IMG/VR virus record: IMGVR_UViG_3300046519_000235
Location: 1 to 25,161 of that record
Direction: 5' to 3' (one strand)
DNA length: 25,161 bases
Origin: a virus
Under the pieces are notes generated by a model, which worked only from the letters and a program-made list of their open reading frames with translations, did no database searches and was not told where the DNA came from. Below, one piece after another: positions 282 to 24,945 of this stretch; within the stretch, counting starts at the first letter, position 1, and the number at the start of each line of letters is the position of its first letter. The position numbers were made by a program, and so were the translations under genes.

Positions 282-1940
282 TTAGCTATTCCAAATGCGT
301 ATTTTTTGTACAAGTCCCGTGATCTTCTGCTCTAATTCTGGGCGAAATGACAAATTCTCTTTCGTGAGATGCTCTGCATACACGAATGCTTTGCTGTGTT
401 TATTTGTGTACTCTTTTGCGCTTGAGATATGGTTGACTCGCAGGTAGTCCTGAATCGTTTCATACTCACCAATCTGGGGAAGATTGACCTTTTTGTGCGC
501 AGCTTCGAAGGCTTCTTTCGGGATGTAGTTTTCGATTTCTGTGCAGCGTGTGATCCAGACCATTGCACGGGTGTTCTCTATTTCTTTTATCAATTGAGTA
601 ACTCTAGGTTTAAGAGAGCCGCTAGAAGTCTTTCGATCGCTATCGCAAACAAACGCAAAGTTTCTATTTATTTTGAAAGCATTGATTGCCTCTTTTGTTT
701 CACTTTCAGGTAGGCTAGCGTCTATATTCGCAAGTACGCTTCCTCCATAAAATACAAATTGATAATGTCGCCCTTCACTGAGTTCACCATTGCTCCAAAT
801 ATCTATCCATTTTTTCAAATAAACACGATCTGACGGGCCTTCTACCCAAATCAAGCCATTGGCCTGTAATAGGTCGCTGGCCCTCACTCCGAGGTCATCC
901 AATACACCGTGACCTTCAGCGTCACCGGCATATGTGTTGCCGATTACGCCGTCCTCACTACGCAATATATGCAATATCTGGGAGTGTTCGGAGCTGCCAA
1001 AAATATCGATGGCGACGTTAGAGTGGGTTGTAAGGAAAATATGGCAGTCATTTTTGACTGCAAATTCCTCTAGAAAAGCGAATAGGTTTCGTTGAAGTGC
1101 GGGGTGTAAGTTATTTTCCAGTTCTTCTAATGAAAAGATATAGCTGCTAGCAGATCTATTTTCAAAATTTGGTCGGACTAGCAGATTAAGCAGGGTAAGG
1201 ATGACTGTCTTTAGCCCGCTTCCTGAAGAAGATAAGGCGATAGGCCCCTTCCTATCTTCGCCAAGAAATATTTCCCATTTATTGGTCTGGGAGTGAAAGC
1301 GCGTTGCGATTTCGTTGAAAGTTATATCTGGTAAAAAAATTTTATTGAGTGCTTTTAATAGCGTTGTTTGTATTATTGTTCTGTCAAATTCCACGTGGTG
1401 GAGGTACTTGTGTACTATCTGAGTTGCCCCGATACCGCTGCTGCCGAGTGACATATCACCACTTACACTCTCGGGAGTGATGTCCCTGTCTGCGTCCAGT
1501 TTTATGTGTGAAAGATCTCGCAATGCTGATTTCGGCGTTATCGATGAGAGATAGGCTGTTTCTTCTTTTGAAGTTTTTTGATCCAGCTTTACAAATTCTA
1601 ATTTGTTACTTCCAAGATCTTTCCATGTTAGTTTTGCGCCAATGAAGTGCTTGCCATGATCGCGCCAATGGTTATATTCAAGTGTGCCGCCACTTGCGCT
1701 CTCGGAGAATACCGGTCTCAGGTCTGACTCGCCCAATACTTCTGTAATCTCGATGCAATTGCTGATGGTGGAGTCGGCCTTGTTTTCCTTGCATAAGTAA
1801 TCAAGGGCAAGCAGTAAACTAGATTTCCCGATGTTGTTCCTACCCACGATCACGTTAATTGGCTTGATCGATTGGAAACCAGCTCCCGTGGGGCCGAAGC
1901 TTTTGTAATTTTTGAGAATGATACCGGTGTCTATGGTCAT
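282..1940 (-). CDS. OLD-family-like ATPase/TOPRIM nuclease (probable defence or exclusion cargo)
   Basis: This 552-residue protein has an SMC/ABC-type ATPase half followed by a TOPRIM half. Walker A is GRNNIGKSS (about 33-41), a signature-like SSSGSG is at about 237, Walker B-like EELENNLHP at 272-280 and the H-loop TTHSN at 304. The TOPRIM part shows WVEGPSD (365-371), CDSD (432-435) and EIENY (468-472), as in OLD-type nucleases related to P2 Old and GajA. Such proteins exclude other phages by DNA cleavage; that role is inferred here. The start has AGGAGGG upstream. No UvrD-like GajB partner lies downstream, so it resembles a stand-alone OLD. It is the last gene before the attachment site and is clearly more AT-rich than the neighbouring integrase, suggesting acquired cargo. 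Confidence 0.88.
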   Translation of the reverse strand: MTIDTGIILKNYKSFGPTGAGFQSIKPINVIVGRNNIGKSSLLLALDYLCKENKADSTISNCIEITEVLGESDLRPVFSESASGGTLEYNHWRDHGKHFIGAKLTWKDLGSNKLEFVKLDQKTSKEETAYLSSITPKSALRDLSHIKLDADRDITPESVSGDMSLGSSGIGATQIVHKYLHHVEFDRTIIQTTLLKALNKIFLPDITFNEIATRFHSQTNKWEIFLGEDRKGPIALSSSGSGLKTVILTLLNLLVRPNFENRSASSYIFSLEELENNLHPALQRNLFAFLEEFAVKNDCHIFLTTHSNVAIDIFGSSEHSQILHILRSEDGVIGNTYAGDAEGHGVLDDLGVRASDLLQANGLIWVEGPSDRVYLKKWIDIWSNGELSEGRHYQFVFYGGSVLANIDASLPESETKEAINAFKINRNFAFVCDSDRKTSSGSLKPRVTQLIKEIENTRAMVWITRCTEIENYIPKEAFEAAHKKVNLPQIGEYETIQDYLRVNHISSAKEYTNKHSKAFVYAEHLTKENLSFRPELEQKITGLVQKIRIWNS

Positions 1941-2012: not shown

Positions 2013-3080
2013 CTATTTCGTAGGTTTTACTATTTCTCCAATACGTCGATAGACCTTTTTCGTCATCTCTTGCGTAGAGTGCCCCAGCAAGCGACTGGCA
2101 TGACTGATGTCTTCAATATCACTGGCCGCTTTCGGTCGGATATCGCGGAATTGAAACTTGCGAATTGTTGCTGAAAGGGTTAGGTCACCATTTGCCATGG
2201 CTTCAATTGCTGCTTTTTCTCGTGCTTCATCCCAGCGATTACGCAACATTGCATAGCTCATGCGTAGGCCTGCCTGATTGGTAATCAGATTAGAGCTTCT
2301 GATTCCGGCCATGGTTTTGCGCTCGAGCAGGGCATCGAGGAAGGTGCTGAGGGCTGATGCGTCTGTTCCATCGTGCAGGCGGATGCGTAGGCGTTTCTCG
2401 GTTTTGCCCTGGCCTACCATCAGGAACCCGTTGTTGAGGTCGGCAGTTGATGCTTTGAGCACATCGGCGGGGCGTTGGCCGGTCAGGTAGGCCAGGTCCA
2501 TTGCGTCTTTCAGCTCGGGCGGTGCCTCTGCGTACACAGCATCCCAAACGATTTTCCCAGCGTAGAAGTCGCGGGGTGTCTCTTTGTTCCTGCGTAGGCG
2601 GGCGCAGGGGTTCGCTTTTTCGGTCAGCCCCCATTCGCGGGCAAAGGTGAATATGGTCGAGAGGAGGGCAATCTCGCGGTTGGCGCGCACCTTTGCTGTC
2701 CGTGCATCACGATATTGGGCAATCACTTGTGGGGTGACCGCGTCGACGGGGGCTGACTCGAAGGCGTTGCGTAGCTGCTTGAGGCCTTTGAGGTAGTCCT
2801 TCTGGGTGCCGGACTTCAGCCCTGGGATGACCTTTTCTTCGTAGTCGTCAAATAGCCTGCCCATCAAGTGGGCAGGCTTGGGTGTAGCTTTGCGATCCAG
2901 GCGAGCCCATTCGACTTTGGCCTCATCGAGGTCGCCGCCGAGCGGGATCTCCACACGGTTACCGTCGGCGTCCCGGCCGTTGTAGTAGTAACCCACCCAG
3001 GTGCTGCCGTTCTTTCTCTTGCGGGAGCGGCGGATCATCCGTGGAGGCAGGTCTCGGTTTGCTGATTTCTTCTGGCGCAT
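2013..3080 (-). CDS. int: Tyrosine-recombinase phage integrase
   Basis: The 355-residue length is usual for a phage integrase that catalyses site-specific insertion and excision at the tRNA. The N-terminal region (about 15-65) resembles an arm-binding domain and 70-150 a SAM-like core-binding domain. The catalytic domain shows Arg203 in TGQRPADVL, a probable Lys226, Arg315 in RDIR, His334 in LLGHS and the nucleophile Tyr344 in KKVYRR. The first His of the usual HxxR box is Arg312 here. It follows the DUF4224 gene by 2 bp in the same operon and reads toward the tRNA. The ribosome site is weak, so translational coupling to the upstream gene is likely. Confidence 0.95.
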   Translation of the reverse strand: MRQKKSANRDLPPRMIRRSRKRKNGSTWVGYYYNGRDADGNRVEIPLGGDLDEAKVEWARLDRKATPKPAHLMGRLFDDYEEKVIPGLKSGTQKDYLKGLKQLRNAFESAPVDAVTPQVIAQYRDARTAKVRANREIALLSTIFTFAREWGLTEKANPCARLRRNKETPRDFYAGKIVWDAVYAEAPPELKDAMDLAYLTGQRPADVLKASTADLNNGFLMVGQGKTEKRLRIRLHDGTDASALSTFLDALLERKTMAGIRSSNLITNQAGLRMSYAMLRNRWDEAREKAAIEAMANGDLTLSATIRKFQFRDIRPKAASDIEDISHASRLLGHSTQEMTKKVYRRIGEIVKPTK

Positions 3081-4699: not shown

Positions 4700-5017
4700 T
4701 TACTCGGTTGAGTCGTCCTGCGGTCGCAGCATCTCTTCATCCGCCTTGTAGGCGCGGATATCGATCAGCGAAGCGACATGGCGGATGTGCGCGTACTTCG
4801 GTGCCTTGCGGCTGGTGTCCAGTGTGGTGATGGGTAGCTGAATCCGTCCGCTGTTGATCTCGGCCACGAACGATTGCTCGTTGAGGTTGCGGAAGTACTG
4901 CTCGCGGACTTTTTCCAACGGGATCAGCACGTCGCCAAAGGTGCGGTAAAGCAGCTCCACGGTGGCTGATTCGGGGGCGGGTCGCAGTCGTAGCGGTGTC
5001 TGGCTGGTGTTATGCAT
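4700..5017 (-). CDS. prtN-like: PrtN-family pyocin-activator-like transcription regulator
   Basis: The core at about residues 22-90 (LLYRTFGDVLIPLEKVREQY, then FVAEINSGRIQLPI and HVASLIDIRAY) matches the PrtN pattern of P. aeruginosa, a positive regulator of pyocin genes that binds P boxes. From the start at 5017 the protein has 105 residues. AAGGAGG lies 12 bases upstream, a somewhat long spacing, and the start overlaps the end of the 59-residue gene by 8 bp. An upstream ATG at 5068 is less likely because it falls inside that gene. Placement in the repressor-controlled left operon suggests it is made on induction and may switch on phage or host bacteriocin genes. The target is not visible here. 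Confidence 0.8.
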   Translation of the reverse strand: MHNTSQTPLRLRPAPESATVELLYRTFGDVLIPLEKVREQYFRNLNEQSFVAEINSGRIQLPITTLDTSRKAPKYAHIRHVASLIDIRAYKADEEMLRPQDDSTE

Positions 5018-5189
5018 TGGCTTGCTGAGCCTCCTTGCGTTGTGTTCTTGTCGGGTGGTTCCAGGCATTCAGGCAGTGTGTTTTGGTCAGCTCCCGCAGA
5101 TGTTCCGGCACTTCGAGGAGCGCGGCGTTGCGCTCCTCGCGTGTGCGCATGGCGACGATCTGGCGAGCGTATTCCCTAGGCCACGTCAC
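5010..5189 (-). CDS. Small phage protein, GTG start
   Basis: A 59-residue frame begins at GTG 5189, reads VTWPREYARQIVAM and ends at TAA 5012-5010. The charged, helical sequence (TREERNAALLEVPEHLRELT) resembles short early proteins common in Pseudomonas prophages, though I cannot name a family. It fills an otherwise unexplained gap and overlaps the KilAC gene by 14 bp and the PrtN-like gene by 8 bp, as neighbours in this operon do. There is no clear ribosome site, so translational coupling to the gene before it is likely. An internal ATG (at MRTREERN) would give a shorter product. Confidence 0.7.
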   Translation of the reverse strand: MTWPREYARQIVAMRTREERNAALLEVPEHLRELTKTHCLNAWNHPTRTQRKEAQQANA

Positions 5190-5473: not shown

Positions 5474-6064
5474 TCAAGCGGCGTGCGCGGCGGGTGTTGC
5501 CGCTGCCGCCAGGTGGTTGATGGACTCGGCTACTTGCTTGTAGATCTCGACGTCGCTGCCGTACACGGTGAAGCATTTGGTGCGCGGCCTTTTCTTGCCG
5601 ATGCTCATGATGGTGGTGACACCAGAGCGGGTTTGAGTGCGATGCAAGGCAATGTGGAGGGGGAGCTCGAAACCCATCTCGAGGCTCACCACGCCACCGG
5701 TACGCACAAGCTCAAGCACTTGTTGCTTATGCTCGATATCGAAGCGGGCGTACTGGCGGCCAGCGTGCGAGATGTTCAACAGATTGGCTGCGTTACTGAC
5801 ATCGAACGGGCCGTTGACGATCTCTTCGATGAAGTCAGCCAGCTTGAGGTGCATCTTTTTTTCGTTCTTCAGGGTCAGCGTGTGGCGCTCGCTGCCAAGT
5901 TCAACGGTGAAAAGGGTGTCGCATGTGTTGCGTTCAACTTTCAGGCGGAACGAGAGAGCCTCGCGCTTAGGTGTCGACCTTAGCGTGTGGTTGAAGGTCT
6001 CGGTCAGGTTGACCTGGGCGTTGAGCAGTTGGAGGGTGCGGTTGTCTAGCTTGTACTTGCTCAT
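5474..6064 (-). CDS. Hypothetical phage early protein
   Basis: This 196-residue protein starts at 6064 with GGAGGG upstream, and its ATG overlaps the stop of the preceding gene. It has mixed helix and strand character, no membrane segment and no motif I recognise. The middle part (DVSNAANLLNISHAGRQY and FDIEHKQQVLELVR) and a basic segment at KKRPRTK stand out. A DNA-related role is possible but unsupported. It is clearly coding: it fits the overlap chain, and the opposite-strand frames have none of these signals. Confidence 0.75.
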   Translation of the reverse strand: MSKYKLDNRTLQLLNAQVNLTETFNHTLRSTPKREALSFRLKVERNTCDTLFTVELGSERHTLTLKNEKKMHLKLADFIEEIVNGPFDVSNAANLLNISHAGRQYARFDIEHKQQVLELVRTGGVVSLEMGFELPLHIALHRTQTRSGVTTIMSIGKKRPRTKCFTVYGSDVEIYKQVAESINHLAAAATPAAHAA

Positions 6065-6237
6065 GCTGCATACCCTCCGCCATTCGGATCGAACGGAGAG
6101 GGTGAGGTGCGGGCTTTCTGCTTTGGTTTGGTGGTGACAAACGTGCAGCCGTATTCGCGGGCTAGGCGGCGGATTTCGAAGATGCGGAATGGATCAGCAG
6201 CGGCCGGATGGACGTGCAGGGTAGCTGTGGTGTGCAT
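6061..6237 (-). CDS. First gene of left operon, small hypothetical protein
   Basis: From the ATG at 6237 this encodes 58 residues (MHTTATLHVHPAAADPF onward), with GAGG upstream. A farther ATG at 6273 would fall in the predicted -10 region of the left promoter and is rejected. The protein has a basic central part (RRLAREYGCTFVTTKPKQKA) and a glycine-rich end. No family is recognised. It is the first gene read from the operator-controlled promoter, and its stop overlaps the next start. Confidence 0.7.
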   Translation of the reverse strand: MHTTATLHVHPAAADPFRIFEIRRLAREYGCTFVTTKPKQKARTSPSPFDPNGGGYAA

Positions 6238-6272
6238 GGTGTTGCCTCGCTCTGTGGTGGAAGAGTGAGGCA

Positions 6273-6301
6273 ATAGTTAACCGTAAAGGTTATATTGTCA
6301 A
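6273..6301 (-). promoter_or_regulatory. Predicted left early promoter (PL-like)
   Basis: On the minus strand a perfect -35 box TTGACA (6301-6296) is followed after 16-17 bases by a -10-like TAACTA/AACTAT (about 6278-6273). The spacer contains operator site 1, so repressor binding would block RNA polymerase directly. Transcription would enter the small gene starting at 6237 and run through the left operon to integrase and the OLD-like gene. Confidence 0.7.
6278..6292. promoter_or_regulatory. Repressor operator site 1 (left)
   Basis: The sequence is TAACCGTAAAGGTTA, an inverted repeat TAACC-N5-GGTTA. It lies in the spacer of the predicted left promoter and overlaps its -10 box. The same pattern recurs at 6309, 9526 and 9566, flanking the repressor gene region, which points to a CI/Cro operator. 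Confidence 0.75.
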
Positions 6302-6308
6302 TGCTAAA

Positions 6309-6323
6309 TAACCTTTATGGTTA
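6309..6323. promoter_or_regulatory. Repressor operator site 2 (left)
   Basis: The sequence is TAACCTTTATGGTTA, with perfect TAACC/GGTTA half-sites. It is centred 31 bp from site 1, about three helical turns, which would suit cooperative binding. It lies just upstream of the left -35 box and only 3 bp after the HNH gene stop codon. There is no terminator between the HNH gene and this promoter. Confidence 0.75.
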
Positions 6324-6326
6324 TTT

Positions 6327-7181
6327 CTAGATTGCTGGATCTTTGCGTCCAAAGCAGAATTGGAAGCCGCCATCACAAAACTCTTCAGATTCCGCCAAAG
6401 CTTTTAATAGAGCCGATTGCCAATGATTTGGGCCGAAGTCTCTGCATGAGGTCGTATAGCTTTTATTCAAAAAAGCCTTGAGTACCGGTGCCCCTACGGC
6501 AGAAAAAATTTCAATGCTGGTTCGTAATGTTCCTAAATAGGTATTGATTGGTACTTTGTAGCGAGAATTTAAATCTAAGGTATCAAATTGAAACTTAAGG
6601 CGTTCAAATTCATTGGCATCAAGCGTTGTTGTACGTGACAACGAGAAAGTAACGAGGAGTCCCGTTGGGCGAACTTCTGCTTCTGCAAGGAGAAAAGCGT
6701 CAACTGGCCGTTCCCCAAAGTAAACATGCGAGAATTGACCTTCAGGAGCATCCCCAGCTTTTGCTCGTTTTAAATTATTGCAGGGATGGCAACAAGGAAT
6801 TAGGTTTTTAGCATAAATGGAATGTGCTTTATACTTTGAGCGCGGTAAGTGATGGTCTAGATCGGTGATTGCCCCAAAGCCGCAATAGGGGCAAATTTCA
6901 GCATTTAATTTTAATCTGTCCCGATAATCTTCAAGCCTTCCGCCTATCTGAACTTGGCTGTATGCGTTGTGAATTGCTTCTAATAATGGCGTTTCTGCAA
7001 CTGTCCCTTTCAAAGTGTCGCAAGGGTTGCCTAGTTTTGCATCGTAAGCCTGGTAAAGTTGTAAAATTCGTAGTTTCTCAATTTCAGTTATAGGGTATAC
7101 GGGGTTGCCATTTACTAATGTCAGGGCAGTGGAGAGGTCGGTAGTTGATGTGTCGGCATTTGGTGCTGTTAATCGCCACAT
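6327..7181 (-). CDS. HNH endonuclease, PtuB-like partner of the upstream ATPase
   Basis: This 284-residue protein contains a zinc-type HNH nuclease core: CPYCG (97-101), DLDHHLPRSKY (107-117), then NLIPCCHPCNN (126-136). The paired CxxC motifs should hold zinc, and the DHH and later Asn form the catalytic HNH set. The N-terminal 90 and C-terminal 130 residues have no motif I recognise. Its ATG overlaps the ATPase stop (TAATG), so the two are translationally coupled. An ABC-type ATPase followed by HNH is the layout of Septu (PtuA/PtuB) anti-phage systems, in which the nuclease acts with the ATPase against invading DNA. Assignment to Septu proper is inference. It is more AT-rich than the flanking early genes. 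Confidence 0.85.
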   Translation of the reverse strand: MWRLTAPNADTSTTDLSTALTLVNGNPVYPITEIEKLRILQLYQAYDAKLGNPCDTLKGTVAETPLLEAIHNAYSQVQIGGRLEDYRDRLKLNAEICPYCGFGAITDLDHHLPRSKYKAHSIYAKNLIPCCHPCNNLKRAKAGDAPEGQFSHVYFGERPVDAFLLAEAEVRPTGLLVTFSLSRTTTLDANEFERLKFQFDTLDLNSRYKVPINTYLGTLRTSIEIFSAVGAPVLKAFLNKSYTTSCRDFGPNHWQSALLKALAESEEFCDGGFQFCFGRKDPAI

Positions 7182-8830
7182 TACAAGTGACCTTCAATGA
7201 CGAGTTGGCTCATTACATAAGCCCTAGCTTGCATGCTCAATCCATATGGTTGAAAAAACTCTTCAATAATATCTAGATTTTTGTGTTCCTTGATTAAGCG
7301 ATCTAGTACTGAATGGAAGTCCGTCGCTCTAGTATTTAATCCAAACGTTTCACCAGTTAAGGTGCCTATGTTTTCGCCGAACGTTTCTTTGCTCGGCTTT
7401 TGTATTGCGGTTATTTTTCCTTCGCGGCGAACGATATAGGTGTGTTTTACAATTGTTTCTTGTAGTACGACGGGGGAGTGAGTCGCTACGATTGCAAACG
7501 CTTTTTTTGTGGAAAGTATGATGCGTATGGCATGCATGAGTGAAGCAAGTAGCGGCGGATGCAGGTGTGTTTCAGGCTCATCAATCAAAATCAAAGAAGA
7601 TTGCGTTGTGTGCGCTGCAAGACTTGCAACTATCTGCATAACAATTTTATGGCCGGTACTCCATAGAAGAAACAGTTTTTCAGGGTCGCTATCGAGGAGC
7701 AATTGTGTAGTTAGTTTGTGCTGGTATGAGGAAAATGATGCGTCGCTTGCGAGGCATCTTAGCGCTCTGTCTAGTATGTGTGTCGCGCCGTTATGCACCA
7801 CAAGTTGCAAGGTTTCCCGATATTCTTCTGCTAGTGATTCAACAGGTTTTAAAAGTGTTGTTGAAACTTTATCTGTCGACGATGTAATAGCTGTGCTTGA
7901 CTCCTCATTGTCAATTTGTGCTTTAAGTTCGGCGGCAATATCTCTTAGGCCGCAAAAAACAAATCGACCACCTCCATCTTGAATGTCTTTGATGATTTGT
8001 ACACGTTCATCCGACTCCCCATCAACACTTGGTTTTAATCCAGGTAGTCGAAAGCTATCGAAAGCACTATAGGAGACAGTAATAATCCGTGGGAATCCAA
8101 TTCCTTCTGGGATTATCTTTCCCACGTCGTCAAAGACTCCATCTTGTCTACTTTTTGTTGTGCCATGAGCTACTCGCGCCAGGCGAGCTAGTAAAGTGCT
8201 TTTGCCAGAGCCATTTTTGCCAATTATTGAAATAATTCGACTGGGTATGGGATGTGCTATGCCTCCTACTCTTTGTACGAACTCAGGAAGAGAGTAGTCG
8301 AACTGTATTTCTTGTTCCCAGCCCGCGACATGAAAAGAGAAATTTAAATCAGTATGTTGAAGGCTGTCGAAATTTTTGTTCAGAAGCGATATTGCCGTGA
8401 GTAAAAAGTCATCATTCTCATTGAAATACCTAAACAGTGAGACGCTCCATCCTTCTTCGCTTCTGAACTCATCGCCCAAACTCGGATTGTAAGCGTAGTC
8501 ATTTAAAGACTCGACTAGGATAACTTTTAAACTTTCATCTAGGGCAGAAAGTCGCTGGTAATAATCTAATGACTGCCCCACCGATACAAAATCTTCAGTT
8601 AGAAAATTGAAGTCTTCAGTGATCTGAAGGAGGTCTGCTGATTTTTGACCTTTTTTCAGTATTTTTACAGTGCCTATTAGGTTGTGCGCTCTTTTTTCTG
8701 GTGGGCCTAGATAAACAAGGCTGTATTGAGTTTCATAGCTATAGTCATTCCAATTATTTTGGATTAAGGCGAATTTATACGCGCTATTATAACTAGGCTC
8801 GGTGCGAGGGGGGAGTACTTGGAATATCAT
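7181..8830 (-). CDS. AAA/ABC-type ATPase, PtuA-like, with long N-terminal extension
   Basis: This 549-residue protein has Walker A GKNGSGKST (about 204-212), a signature-like region LLWSTGHK (388-395), Walker B SLILIDEPETHLHP (412-425) and H-loop VATHSP (448-453). These are features of the SMC/ABC-like ATPases found in Septu, OLD and retron-associated defence. There is no TOPRIM nuclease domain after the H-loop; a separate HNH nuclease gene overlaps its stop by 1 bp instead. The first 195 residues before Walker A, strand-rich and acidic, match nothing I recognise and may be a sensor or interaction domain. AAGGA lies upstream of the start. It begins 28 bp after the repressor stop on the same strand, so co-transcription with the repressor in the lysogen is likely. 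Confidence 0.85.
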   Translation of the reverse strand: MIFQVLPPRTEPSYNSAYKFALIQNNWNDYSYETQYSLVYLGPPEKRAHNLIGTVKILKKGQKSADLLQITEDFNFLTEDFVSVGQSLDYYQRLSALDESLKVILVESLNDYAYNPSLGDEFRSEEGWSVSLFRYFNENDDFLLTAISLLNKNFDSLQHTDLNFSFHVAGWEQEIQFDYSLPEFVQRVGGIAHPIPSRIISIIGKNGSGKSTLLARLARVAHGTTKSRQDGVFDDVGKIIPEGIGFPRIITVSYSAFDSFRLPGLKPSVDGESDERVQIIKDIQDGGGRFVFCGLRDIAAELKAQIDNEESSTAITSSTDKVSTTLLKPVESLAEEYRETLQLVVHNGATHILDRALRCLASDASFSSYQHKLTTQLLLDSDPEKLFLLWSTGHKIVMQIVASLAAHTTQSSLILIDEPETHLHPPLLASLMHAIRIILSTKKAFAIVATHSPVVLQETIVKHTYIVRREGKITAIQKPSKETFGENIGTLTGETFGLNTRATDFHSVLDRLIKEHKNLDIIEEFFQPYGLSMQARAYVMSQLVIEGHL

Positions 8831-8858
8831 CTTGGCTTGTCCTTAAGCAATATGCTTA

Positions 8859-9506
8859 TTATAGGTCCGTTATTTTCCAGCGCGCGCGGCCACATATACT
8901 CCAATCTTCAGTCATCCGAATTATGCGCTCGGGCCAGTCTGGATTAAGGGCATATAAATAATTTTCATTACCCTCTTGCTTAAGTTGTTTAAGGGTCGCG
9001 GCCTGATCTCTAGATCTTTTTGCCGCTACGAAATGTCCTGGGAGCGCTTCAAGGGATGGGTCAATAACAATTTTGTCCCCAGCCATGAATTTTGGCTCCA
9101 TGCTGATCCCTTCTACACGAAGAATAAAAGCCCTCGGGCCAACTGGTCCAGGTGCATCGATCCATTCTTCCGCATCCTTAGGATCGAAATTTCCGGCAGT
9201 CTCACACCATGCTCCCGCCGCAATTGACCCTATTACCGGCAATTTGCGCCCTGTGTGGCTCAAAACGGTCGCATTATTGAATTCGCCGACCCCATAAAGC
9301 ACGTCTAGGTAGCCGCTAGGTAGTTCCAATGCTTTTTCGATTTCGCGAGCTATTTGGTCACCTATGCCTTTCGTGGGATTTTTGCCTCCAAAGGCGCTCA
9401 CTTGCGCCGGAGCCTTCCCTAGAAGATCAGCAATGTCTGTCAGGCGGAGCTTTTTTTCCGCTAACACCCTTCGAAAGTTGTGTAATCGCGTATCTGATAT
9501 TTTCAT
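8859..9506 (-). CDS. cI-like: CI/LexA-type self-cleaving prophage repressor
   Basis: This 215-residue protein has an N-terminal helix-turn-helix (about 20-62, LTDIADLLGKAPAQVSAFGG) and a C-terminal S24 peptidase domain. The probable cleavage bond is Ala97-Gly98 (SIAAGAW), the nucleophile Ser135 (GISMEP) and the general base Lys173 (ATLKQL), at LexA-like spacing. It should maintain lysogeny by binding the TAACC-N5-GGTTA sites at both flanks and be inactivated through RecA after DNA damage. The start at 9506 has only a weak ribosome site. It is divergent from the Cro-like gene, and the ATPase/HNH pair follows on the same strand. Confidence 0.93.
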   Translation of the reverse strand: MKISDTRLHNFRRVLAEKKLRLTDIADLLGKAPAQVSAFGGKNPTKGIGDQIAREIEKALELPSGYLDVLYGVGEFNNATVLSHTGRKLPVIGSIAAGAWCETAGNFDPKDAEEWIDAPGPVGPRAFILRVEGISMEPKFMAGDKIVIDPSLEALPGHFVAAKRSRDQAATLKQLKQEGNENYLYALNPDWPERIIRMTEDWSICGRARWKITDL

Positions 9507-9525
9507 ACGCCGATTCTCGCTGGAT

Positions 9526-9540
9526 TAACCTTTAAGGTGA
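9526..9540. promoter_or_regulatory. Repressor operator site 3 (right, cI-proximal)
   Basis: The sequence is TAACCTTTAAGGTGA, matching TAACC-N5-GGTTA with one mismatch in the second half-site. It lies 20-34 bp upstream of the repressor start, so binding here could autoregulate the repressor gene. A weaker CC-N5-GG element centred near 9549 may be a degenerate middle site. Confidence 0.7.
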
Positions 9541-9555
9541 ATGTCCTTCTAGGTA

Positions 9556-9584
9556 TTGCTAAAAATAACCCGAAAGGTTAACTT
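9556..9584 (+). promoter_or_regulatory. Predicted rightward promoter for the cro-like gene (PR-like)
   Basis: A -35-like TTGCTA (9556-9561) and a -10-like TAACTT (9579-9584) are 17 bp apart, with operator site 4 filling the spacer. The arrangement copies the left promoter, where an operator also sits between the boxes and runs into TAACT. Transcription would enter the Cro-like gene at 9607. Confidence 0.65.
9566..9580. promoter_or_regulatory. Repressor operator site 4 (right, cro-proximal)
   Basis: The sequence is TAACCCGAAAGGTTA, with perfect TAACC and GGTTA half-sites. It lies inside the predicted rightward promoter, centred 40 bp from site 3. Binding would shut off the Cro-like gene and the right early operon. 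Confidence 0.75.
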
Positions 9585-9606
9585 GTGGTCTCGAGAGGGT
9601 ATAACC

Positions 9607-9840
9607 ATGAAGCTGCGTGACTACATCAACCAACTGGATTCTCAGGCCCTTGAGGCATACGCGGGACGCTGCAATATTGCCCTGAGTTATCTGCGTCTTC
9701 ACGTTAAATATGCAAGCAAAGACCCTAGCGTTTCGCTGATCAAGTCGTTAACACGTCAGAGCCAGGGGCACGTGTCGCTTGCGGAGGTTCTGGACCATTT
9801 CGGAATTACAGAATCCGATCCTGAGATAGCAGCTGCATAG
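9607..9840 (+). CDS. cro-like: Cro-like repressor (YdaS/Cro type helix-turn-helix)
   Basis: From the ATG at 9607, with GAGAGGG about 6 bases upstream, this encodes 77 residues (MKLRDYINQLDSQALEAYAG onward). It is small and helical: AYAGRCNIALSYLRLHVKYA forms a helix-turn-helix-like unit and VSLAEVLDHFGI a further helix. An upstream start at 9556 lies in the promoter and is rejected. Divergence from the CI-like gene across shared operators marks it as the Cro partner of the lysis-lysogeny switch. Confidence 0.8.
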   Translation: MKLRDYINQLDSQALEAYAGRCNIALSYLRLHVKYASKDPSVSLIKSLTRQSQGHVSLAEVLDHFGITESDPEIAAA

Positions 9841-9868: not shown

Positions 9869-10170
9869 CAGTTCCTCCCGGCACGCACCACCACAGCGCT
9901 GTCGGGTCGCGATAAAGAGAGGCGGGCACACCACATGCGAACCGTCGATCTTTACCGCGCTTTCCAAGGCTCGGATGCCTTGGTGTTGCTGCCTTTTCCA
10001 CCACAGATTGGGCAGCTGTTGCGCCAGAGGTGAACGACGGATCGTTCGCCTCGGCACGGTGCCGGTGTCGATCCTGAAGATCTAACCGGCGTTTGGGCCC
10101 TTTCAAGCCTCGCGGCAAATGTACCACCACTGCATGTCGCGCGGCACTGGCAACCTTAAGGATTAATGCC
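9869..10170. other. Gene-free structured stretch between cro and cII-like genes
   Basis: About 300 bp without a convincing gene hold several perfect hairpins: CCAAGGC/GCCTTGG at 9964-9970/9977-9983, a 9-bp stem at 10029-10037/10042-10050 with a CGGA loop, and CGGCAC/GTGCCG at 10052-10057/10059-10064. With the leftward terminator at its left end, it could encode a leftward regulatory RNA (OOP-like) or a structured leader on the rightward mRNA. Only a weak minus-strand promoter candidate (TTGAAA near 10112) was seen. Confidence 0.5.
9935..10033 (+). CDS. Possible 32-residue peptide
   Basis: An ATG at 9935, preceded by GAGAGG at a long spacing, opens a 32-codon frame (MRTVDLYRAFQGSDALVLLP onward) ending at TGA 10031-10033. 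The same frame then stays open to near 10159, so it might be a leader peptide or a remnant of a longer gene interrupted by the stop. It overlaps the hairpin at 9964-9983. The composition looks protein-like but evidence is thin, and a structured RNA reading is equally possible. Confidence 0.25.
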   Translation: MRTVDLYRAFQGSDALVLLPFPPQIGQLLRQR

Positions 10171-10689
10171 ATGAGCCGAATCGCTCTGAGTTCTGTAGAA
10201 CGGGCGCAGCGGGAGATCCTGCCGCTCGATTTAGCGCTTTACCATGCTGCCCGGGACTACCCGGGCGGCGCTGCTGCAATTGCCGCCACCACCGGCAGAA
10301 ACGCCACCACGCTGCAGCACAAGCTGTCTCCAACCCACCCCAGCCACACGGTGAACATTCAGGAATTCGGCGAGATCCTGGAGCTGACCAAGGACCGCCG
10401 CATTTTGGATGCAGTGCATGCGCTGGTCGGGGATACGACTTGGCAGGAGTTGGCCGAGGCGTACACCAACGACATGCCTGAAACCTTGACCACTGGTATT
10501 GCTGAGTATTTTCGGCAGGTCGCGGATTTGGCTGATACCTGGGCCAAAAGCATCGGCGACGGTGTAGTGACGGACCACGAACTGGCCGCGATTCGCCTGC
10601 AGGTGTTTCGAGGTATTCAAGGGCTGTTGGGGATGTTCAACCGCGCCACCTACGTTAATCAAACAACGCGGGGTGTCGACCGTGGCTGA
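10171..10689 (+). CDS. CII-like phage regulatory protein (CP76 family)
   Basis: The protein has 172 residues from the ATG at 10171, with AAGGA nine bases upstream. Residues 20-90 (LYHAARDYPGGAAAIAATTG, then NIQEFGEILELTKDRRILDA) match the phage regulatory CII/CP76 pattern, in which an N-terminal helix-turn-helix decides entry into lysogeny or controls early genes. The C-terminal half is helical and acidic. The in-frame extension to 10093 lacks a ribosome site and crosses the structured leader. It opens the right early operon after the Cro-like gene and overlaps the next gene by 8 bp. Confidence 0.8.
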   Translation: MSRIALSSVERAQREILPLDLALYHAARDYPGGAAAIAATTGRNATTLQHKLSPTHPSHTVNIQEFGEILELTKDRRILDAVHALVGDTTWQELAEAYTNDMPETLTTGIAEYFRQVADLADTWAKSIGDGVVTDHELAAIRLQVFRGIQGLLGMFNRATYVNQTTRGVDRG

Positions 10690-24696: not shown

Positions 24697-24945
24697 ATGG
24701 CGAAGACAAACGATGTTCTCAGTATTGAGCAGCCGCAGCCGCAGCCGCAGCCGCAGCCGCAGCCGCAACGGACGGGGGATCTGACGATGAAATTTCGCGA
24801 CAGGGTGTACACGTCGCGCACCTTGGTCCTTCCCGAATCGGGACGGACGTTGCCGGTCGCCAAGGCTTGCGTCGAGGTCTCCGCGTCCGATGAGCAGGCG
24901 GTCAGCTACCTGAAAGCCCACGAAGAATTCGAACCGCTGGAGTGA
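24697..24945 (+). CDS. Small hypothetical protein with Gln-Pro repeat, between baseplate genes
   Basis: From ATG 24697, with GGAG six bases upstream, this encodes 82 residues. A QP-repeat segment lies at about 12-24, followed by a compact domain (MKFRDRVYTSRTLVLPESG, then VAKACVEVSASDEQAVSYLK). An internal ATG at MKFRD (24787) would give a product without the repeat. Homologous small proteins of Pseudomonas phages begin near that point as far as I recall, so the true start is uncertain. The function is unknown; a tail or baseplate accessory role is possible from position. Confidence 0.7.
   Translation: MAKTNDVLSIEQPQPQPQPQPQPQRTGDLTMKFRDRVYTSRTLVLPESGRTLPVAKACVEVSASDEQAVSYLKAHEEFEPLE
24730..24765 (+). 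repeat. Hexanucleotide repeat (CAGCCG)6
   Basis: Six perfect tandem copies of CAGCCG encode a Gln-Pro run in the small baseplate-region protein. The unit is a multiple of three, so slippage would change protein length by two residues per unit without a frameshift. Confidence 0.95.

Follow-up and report, generated by a model that had tools for sequence, protein, structure and literature searches.

A family of lambda-like Pseudomonas prophages has an exchangeable slot between the repressor gene cI and the left operators. In the stretch analysed here (the window, 25,161 nt of an IMG/VR virus record), this slot is occupied by an ATPase gene and an HNH nuclease gene. With a probability of roughly 0.78, the pair is a two-gene PDC-M01 anti-phage module, an interchangeable cargo made in the lysogen and acting through an HNH nuclease that the ATPase licenses. 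Prophage-carried defence in the rexAB position is well supported by sequence comparison; for the pair itself, we infer a defence activity, shared transcription with cI and a nuclease target.

The window is a lambda-like Pseudomonas prophage, and its relatives are located in Pseudomonas genomes. It starts with a tRNA-Cys gene and contains an integrase gene (2013-3080, minus strand) and an excisionase gene (4700-5068, minus strand), both identified by profile matches. The immunity region follows a lambda-like order: left operators, HNH, ATPase, cI, right operators, cro and cII. The CI-type repressor (8859..9506, minus strand) carries an S24 peptidase domain, matching Peptidase_S24 (E 2.2e-21) and the PHROG 4 transcriptional repressor (E 2.6e-30). 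Divergent to cI lies a Cro-like gene (9556..9840, plus strand, start codon uncertain), which is assigned by position and conserved in relatives; the profile scan of the window proteins returned no match for it. A CII-like regulator of the Phage_CP76 type (10093..10689, plus strand, E 1.5e-21) comes next, with a VapE-type helicase and a GpA-type terminase behind it, again by profile match. On the opposite side, the small ORF o6061 (6061..6273, minus strand) is the first conserved gene left of the slot and marks its border. Between the tRNA-Cys gene and the integrase sits an OLD/AriA-like ATPase of 552 aa (282-1940, minus strand, G+C 0.43). Relatives show differing, mostly low-G+C ORFs in the stretch beyond int, which is probably a second cargo site.

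The pair itself consists of an Ea59-like and PtuA-like ABC ATPase of the PDC-M01A type (7181..8830, minus strand, 549 aa) and an Ea31-like and PtuB-like HNH nuclease of the PDC-M01B type (6327..7181, minus strand, 284 aa), whose frames share a TAATG at 7179-7183. A junction of 28 nt (8831..8858, minus strand) connects cI to the ATPase gene, and the palindrome TAACC-ATAAA-GGTTA lies downstream of the HNH stop codon (6327-6329), at a distance of 3 nt. The preliminary description had placed the pair directly behind a CI-type repressor on the same strand, with this overlap, gap and distance to the operator, and the coordinates and repressor profiles agree with it on each count. The ATPase contains a Walker A motif GKNGSGKST (residues 204-212, K210) preceded by about 190 residues, a signature STGHK, a Walker B LILIDEPE (D417/E418) and an H-loop ATHSP (H451). 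The nuclease core, zinc cysteines included, comprises CxxC (97/100), LDHHLP (D109/H110), NL (N126) and CxxCN (131/134/135). All the motifs first read from the letters are thus present, and both sets are invariant in alignments with lambda Ea59 and Ea31, respectively, and with two chromosomal Pseudomonas pairs. Both genes are intact at the same place, in the order cI-ATPase-HNH-operator, in four other distinct prophages; a search of viral contigs with the ATPase alignment returned only contigs that were already known.

Operator-like sites flank both ends of the HNH-ATPase-cI block. Exact AACC-N5-GGTT sites begin at only three positions of the whole window, 6279, 6310 and 9567, with a near-match at 9527. 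On the left, one site (6310..6322) adjoins the HNH stop codon and the other (6279..6291) is positioned between the -35 and -10 of a PL-like leftward promoter (6273..6301, minus strand), which combines TTGACA (6296-6301), a 17-nt spacer and a weak -10, AACTAT (6273-6278), read by eye. OL and PL of lambda are arranged likewise. The right sites comprise one with a single mismatch (9527..9539) and one exact (9567..9579). Two right operators are found in 73/73 records and one or two left operators in each record, and a TTGAC ahead of the last operator recurs in many relatives. When one mismatch is allowed, the pattern occurs 14 times in the window against 8 expected, and therefore only exact sites and their positions were used. 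The position and symmetry of the AACC-N5-GGTT sites suggest that they would be bound by CI.

The slot was delimited by comparing relatives. A scan with the CI protein gave 80 viral contigs; with the window and L003 counted in and known duplicates taken out, the census covers 71 contigs. Their shared backbone presents VapE, CII, cro and CI on one side and o6061 on the other. Across the 71 contigs the distance from CI to o6061 ranges from 55 to 4367 nt (IQR 1199-2340), with neighbouring anchor distances nearly constant. Three slots are empty, measuring about 54 bp, with the first operator within a few nt of the cI stop codon. The remaining 68 hold one to three genes (0.7-4.4 kb) of about 30 unrelated, AT-rich cargo types; mean G+C is 0.41 in the slot and 0.58 in the flanks, the slot being lower in 70/70 records. 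The CI tree is weakly resolved, and only its small, well-supported clades were used. Within one such clade, L060, L062 and L064 are 87-96% identical in DNA on both sides of three unrelated cargos, and L003 carries the ATPase-HNH pair. Since near-identical flanks enclose different cargos in L060, L062 and L064, the cargo has been exchanged within a standing backbone. The repressor is also present in 11 of 299 Pseudomonas genomes, among which the slot content differs again. Not every phage with this type of repressor has the slot: in Turba and Meadow, the P. aeruginosa phages whose CI comes nearest in the phage collection (about 70%), other genes follow CI.

Much of the cargo resembles defence systems. 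When cargo was typed by cluster representative at a PADLOC threshold of 1e-6, 39 of the 68 filled slots and 20 of 40 representatives were positive. PDC-M01 and PD-T7-3 occupy five slots each; PDC-S59, AbiTii and PARIS-like AriA/AriB four each; a UG17 reverse transcriptase with a SLATT protein and a retron-type reverse transcriptase three each; and a SIR2-type protein and a cytosine methylase with HATPase two each. Single slots hold Nsn/PD-T4-2, PDC-M34, an HNH protein like CBASS effectors/PDC-M68, AbiC/AbiP, PDC-M29, an LmuA-like protein and an AAA protein. Two further types show a TIR domain of CAP12/Pycsar effectors and a dCTP deaminase-like domain. Thirteen types, filling 29/68 slots, have no PADLOC match. 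The commonest cargo is a nine-member cluster of 319-367 aa proteins (L058, L010, L017, L043, L045, L046, L053, L063 and L069; for example L058 7689-8792, plus strand), whose representative matches nothing in Pfam or PADLOC. For control, 60 non-slot protein families of the same contigs were scanned, leaving out the end beyond int, the apparent second cargo site. There, each of 22 PADLOC models had a single matching member, and these matches fall into three sorts (methyltransferase, 2TM effector and SLATT), corresponding to about 2-3 proteins. Cargo therefore exceeds the non-slot families by 20/40 to 3/60 (Fisher p 2e-7). The slot has the features of a prophage defence hotspot: conserved borders, exchangeable content and a higher share of defence genes than elsewhere in the phage. 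This comparison lends good support to the earlier suggestion that the prophage carries a repressor-linked defence, the architecture being lambda-like and the interval in relatives holding known or candidate defence systems.

Some features of individual cargos were recorded alongside. L014 contains a three-ORF cargo (7645-9664) resembling, by eye, a cytidylyltransferase, a membrane protein with a macro-domain-like end and an ADP-ribosyltransferase; the latter two ORFs gave no Pfam or PADLOC match. Short hexamer-like repeats lie at or near cargo ends in L041 (7712-8797, with an N-terminal MGMGMG/GIGIGI run), in L060 and L067 near cI, and in L063 before the left operators, and a late gene of the window includes a QPQPQP run (24739-24777). 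These repeats are possibly phase-variable.

Lambda keeps rexAB behind its repressor and expresses it in the lysogen. The window pair occupies the corresponding position, between cI and the left operator and promoter and on the cI strand; order, strand and operators all bear out the rexAB-like placement proposed at the outset. RexAB itself, a RexA-like DNA-binding protein with a RexB-like membrane protein, is ruled out as the identity of the pair by the ATPase and HNH nuclease families. For the window, the natural reading is that cI, ATPase and HNH would form one transcript from the repressor-maintenance promoter, so that the pair would be made in the lysogen and its level would fall off, and be lost, on induction. 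Alternatively, the defence pair may have its own promoter or be induced by infection, the place behind cI being a safe landing site, flanked by conserved DNA, where no promoter is shared. This view draws on the 37/68 filled slots in which the cargo next to cI opposes it and must have its own promoter, often with a hairpin placed to stop the cargo transcript before cI; co-transcription with cI is thus not a general rule of the slot. In the other 31/68 the cargo is codirectional with cI; the gap between the two has a median of 31 nt and in nearly every case lacks a terminator-like hairpin, and some of the ORFs overlap the cI stop codon, with start codons as predicted. The window is of this second kind, its 28-nt junction containing neither a terminator-like hairpin nor a promoter-like site, which makes a separate promoter for the pair unlikely.

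Profile comparison assigns the pair to the PADLOC candidate family PDC-M01. The ATPase matches PDC-M01A with E 4.5e-103 (residues 1-542 on profile positions 1-501 of 510) and the HNH protein matches PDC-M01B with E 2.2e-45 (residues 68-274); the ATPase gene precedes an adjacent, overlapping HNH gene, and no tested feature departs from the family. The full-length ATPase match, the match over most of the nuclease and the four further prophages confirm, at the level of sequence, that the pair is more than chance. A literature search found no PDC-M01 paper with a functional test. Among described phage proteins, the nearest relatives are Ea59 and Ea31 of lambda, which fit the PDC-M01A and PDC-M01B models far better than the window pair does (E 3.9e-201 and 5.8e-113), making lambda ea59-ea31 (L087 2010-4474, equal to lambda 24509-26973) a strong PDC-M01 pair by PADLOC. 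The two pairs agree in gene order, overlapping frames, core residues and family. They differ in sequence, at 26% identity, and in place, the lambda pair lying in the b region left of int and not behind cI. No paper tying Ea59/Ea31 to defence was found among the open-access papers searched, which are only part of the literature. A distant PDC-M01 pair is also seen in a faecal phage contig (L118 697-7460), beside a recombinase and genes for an OLD-type ATPase and a UvrD-type helicase, the last two resembling Gabija when read by eye.

The preliminary description had called the pair Septu-like, and this stands for its type, an operon of an ABC ATPase and an HNH nuclease as in Septu and retron I-A PtuA/PtuB. 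Strict Septu or retron PtuA/PtuB membership is rejected in favour of the PDC-M01/Ea59-Ea31 kinship, with scores far under the NCBIfam cut-offs (29.4 against 500 bits for PtuA NF041760; 13.9 against 52.15 bits for TIGR02646). The proposed profile search accordingly gave a mixed outcome. The PADLOC PtuA1 model PDLC00282 covers the ATPase over its full length (1.3e-81), the same model fitting lambda Ea59 at 5.4e-184, and for the remaining PtuA1 models among the matches listed the best-matching stretch is confined to the C-terminal ATPase half. Retron PtuA (E 8.8e-9) is among the best sequence-profile matches in the PDB and aligns with half of the ATPase. Walker A is located near residue 43 in Septu EcB88 and near 204 in the window ATPase (PMC13096335), PtuB-type proteins in the PDB have 215-266 aa against 284 aa here, and the reverse transcriptase of retron I-A has no counterpart next to the pair or among the window proteins scanned by profiles. 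The predicted structures have low mean pLDDT values of 37.9 and 56.7 and derive from shallow alignments of five sequences. DefenseFinder has named Septu the same proteins that PADLOC named PDC-M01 (PMC11811056), so the border between the two is soft. The pair is filed here under PDC-M01 and, by analogy, probably works like PtuAB.

Septu EcB88 requires ATPase and HNH residues alike (PMC13096335, PMC11555353), and characterised PtuAB systems target tRNA-Tyr or DNA, some of them arresting growth of the infected cell (PMC11555353, PMC13096335). On the analogy with PtuAB, the window ATPase would bind and restrain the HNH protein and license it after sensing infection. Infection by another phage would change the nucleotide state of the ATPase and release the nuclease on DNA or RNA, and its action would block phage multiplication or arrest the infected cell. 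A different proposal is that the pair serves the phage in DNA metabolism, homing or recombination during lytic growth. HNH proteins are indeed common among phage enzymes, and lambda holds the related ea59-ea31 in its b region with, to our knowledge, no known role. Related pairs nevertheless exist outside phages (L116 and L117); the chromosomal L116 lies outside any obvious prophage or defence island, a point against the defence reading. Other prophages fill the same place with retron- or DRT-type reverse transcriptases, SIR2, Abi- or PARIS-like proteins, or leave it empty; the slot is thus not bound to any phage function, and a role in lytic growth is very improbable. Least credible is a neutral or decaying cargo, to which the low G+C and patchy distribution of any recent insert would be suited, since five divergent prophages have both frames at full length, with catalytic residues unchanged at 61-89% identity.

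Repressor-linked exclusion genes have precedents. BstA (PMC8585504), the Gifsy immunity region (PMC12724215) and P. putida RexAB (RexABpp), with two genes intervening between it and its repressor gene (PMC12894663), all place exclusion genes behind a prophage repressor; the proteins of lambda rexAB, BstA and RexABpp are unrelated to the window pair. P2/P4 hotspots combine a fixed place in a conserved backbone with exchangeable, defence-rich cargo (PMC9122126), and the lambdoid cI-N interval is a hotspot of mosaic diversity according to Degnan 2007, as cited by Owen et al. (PMC8585504). The present family shares the fixed place and exchangeable cargo and differs in its host, Pseudomonas, its S24-type CI and its VapE-type helicase. 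The open-access papers searched, which are only part of the literature, contained no census of the slot in Pseudomonas. The pair adds to a known candidate family, and the slot adds to a known type of place.

In conclusion, the slot and the kinship with lambda Ea59/Ea31 outweigh the single window pair in importance. One fixed place receives defence systems that are known, candidate or unknown, each prophage carrying a single cargo with clean borders. This gives the place practical value for finding new systems and lets it serve as a natural experiment on how cargo in either orientation is tolerated at a repressor locus. A broader reading, to which we give not quite even odds, is that the slot is dedicated to defence, that most of the 13 unmatched types are undescribed anti-phage systems, and that Ea59-Ea31 is a defence pair of lambda that has gone unrecognised. 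Experiments would be best spent on the unmatched cargos and the link to lambda, and the Ea59-Ea31 kinship offers a testable defence hypothesis for two unexplained lambda genes in the best laboratory phage.
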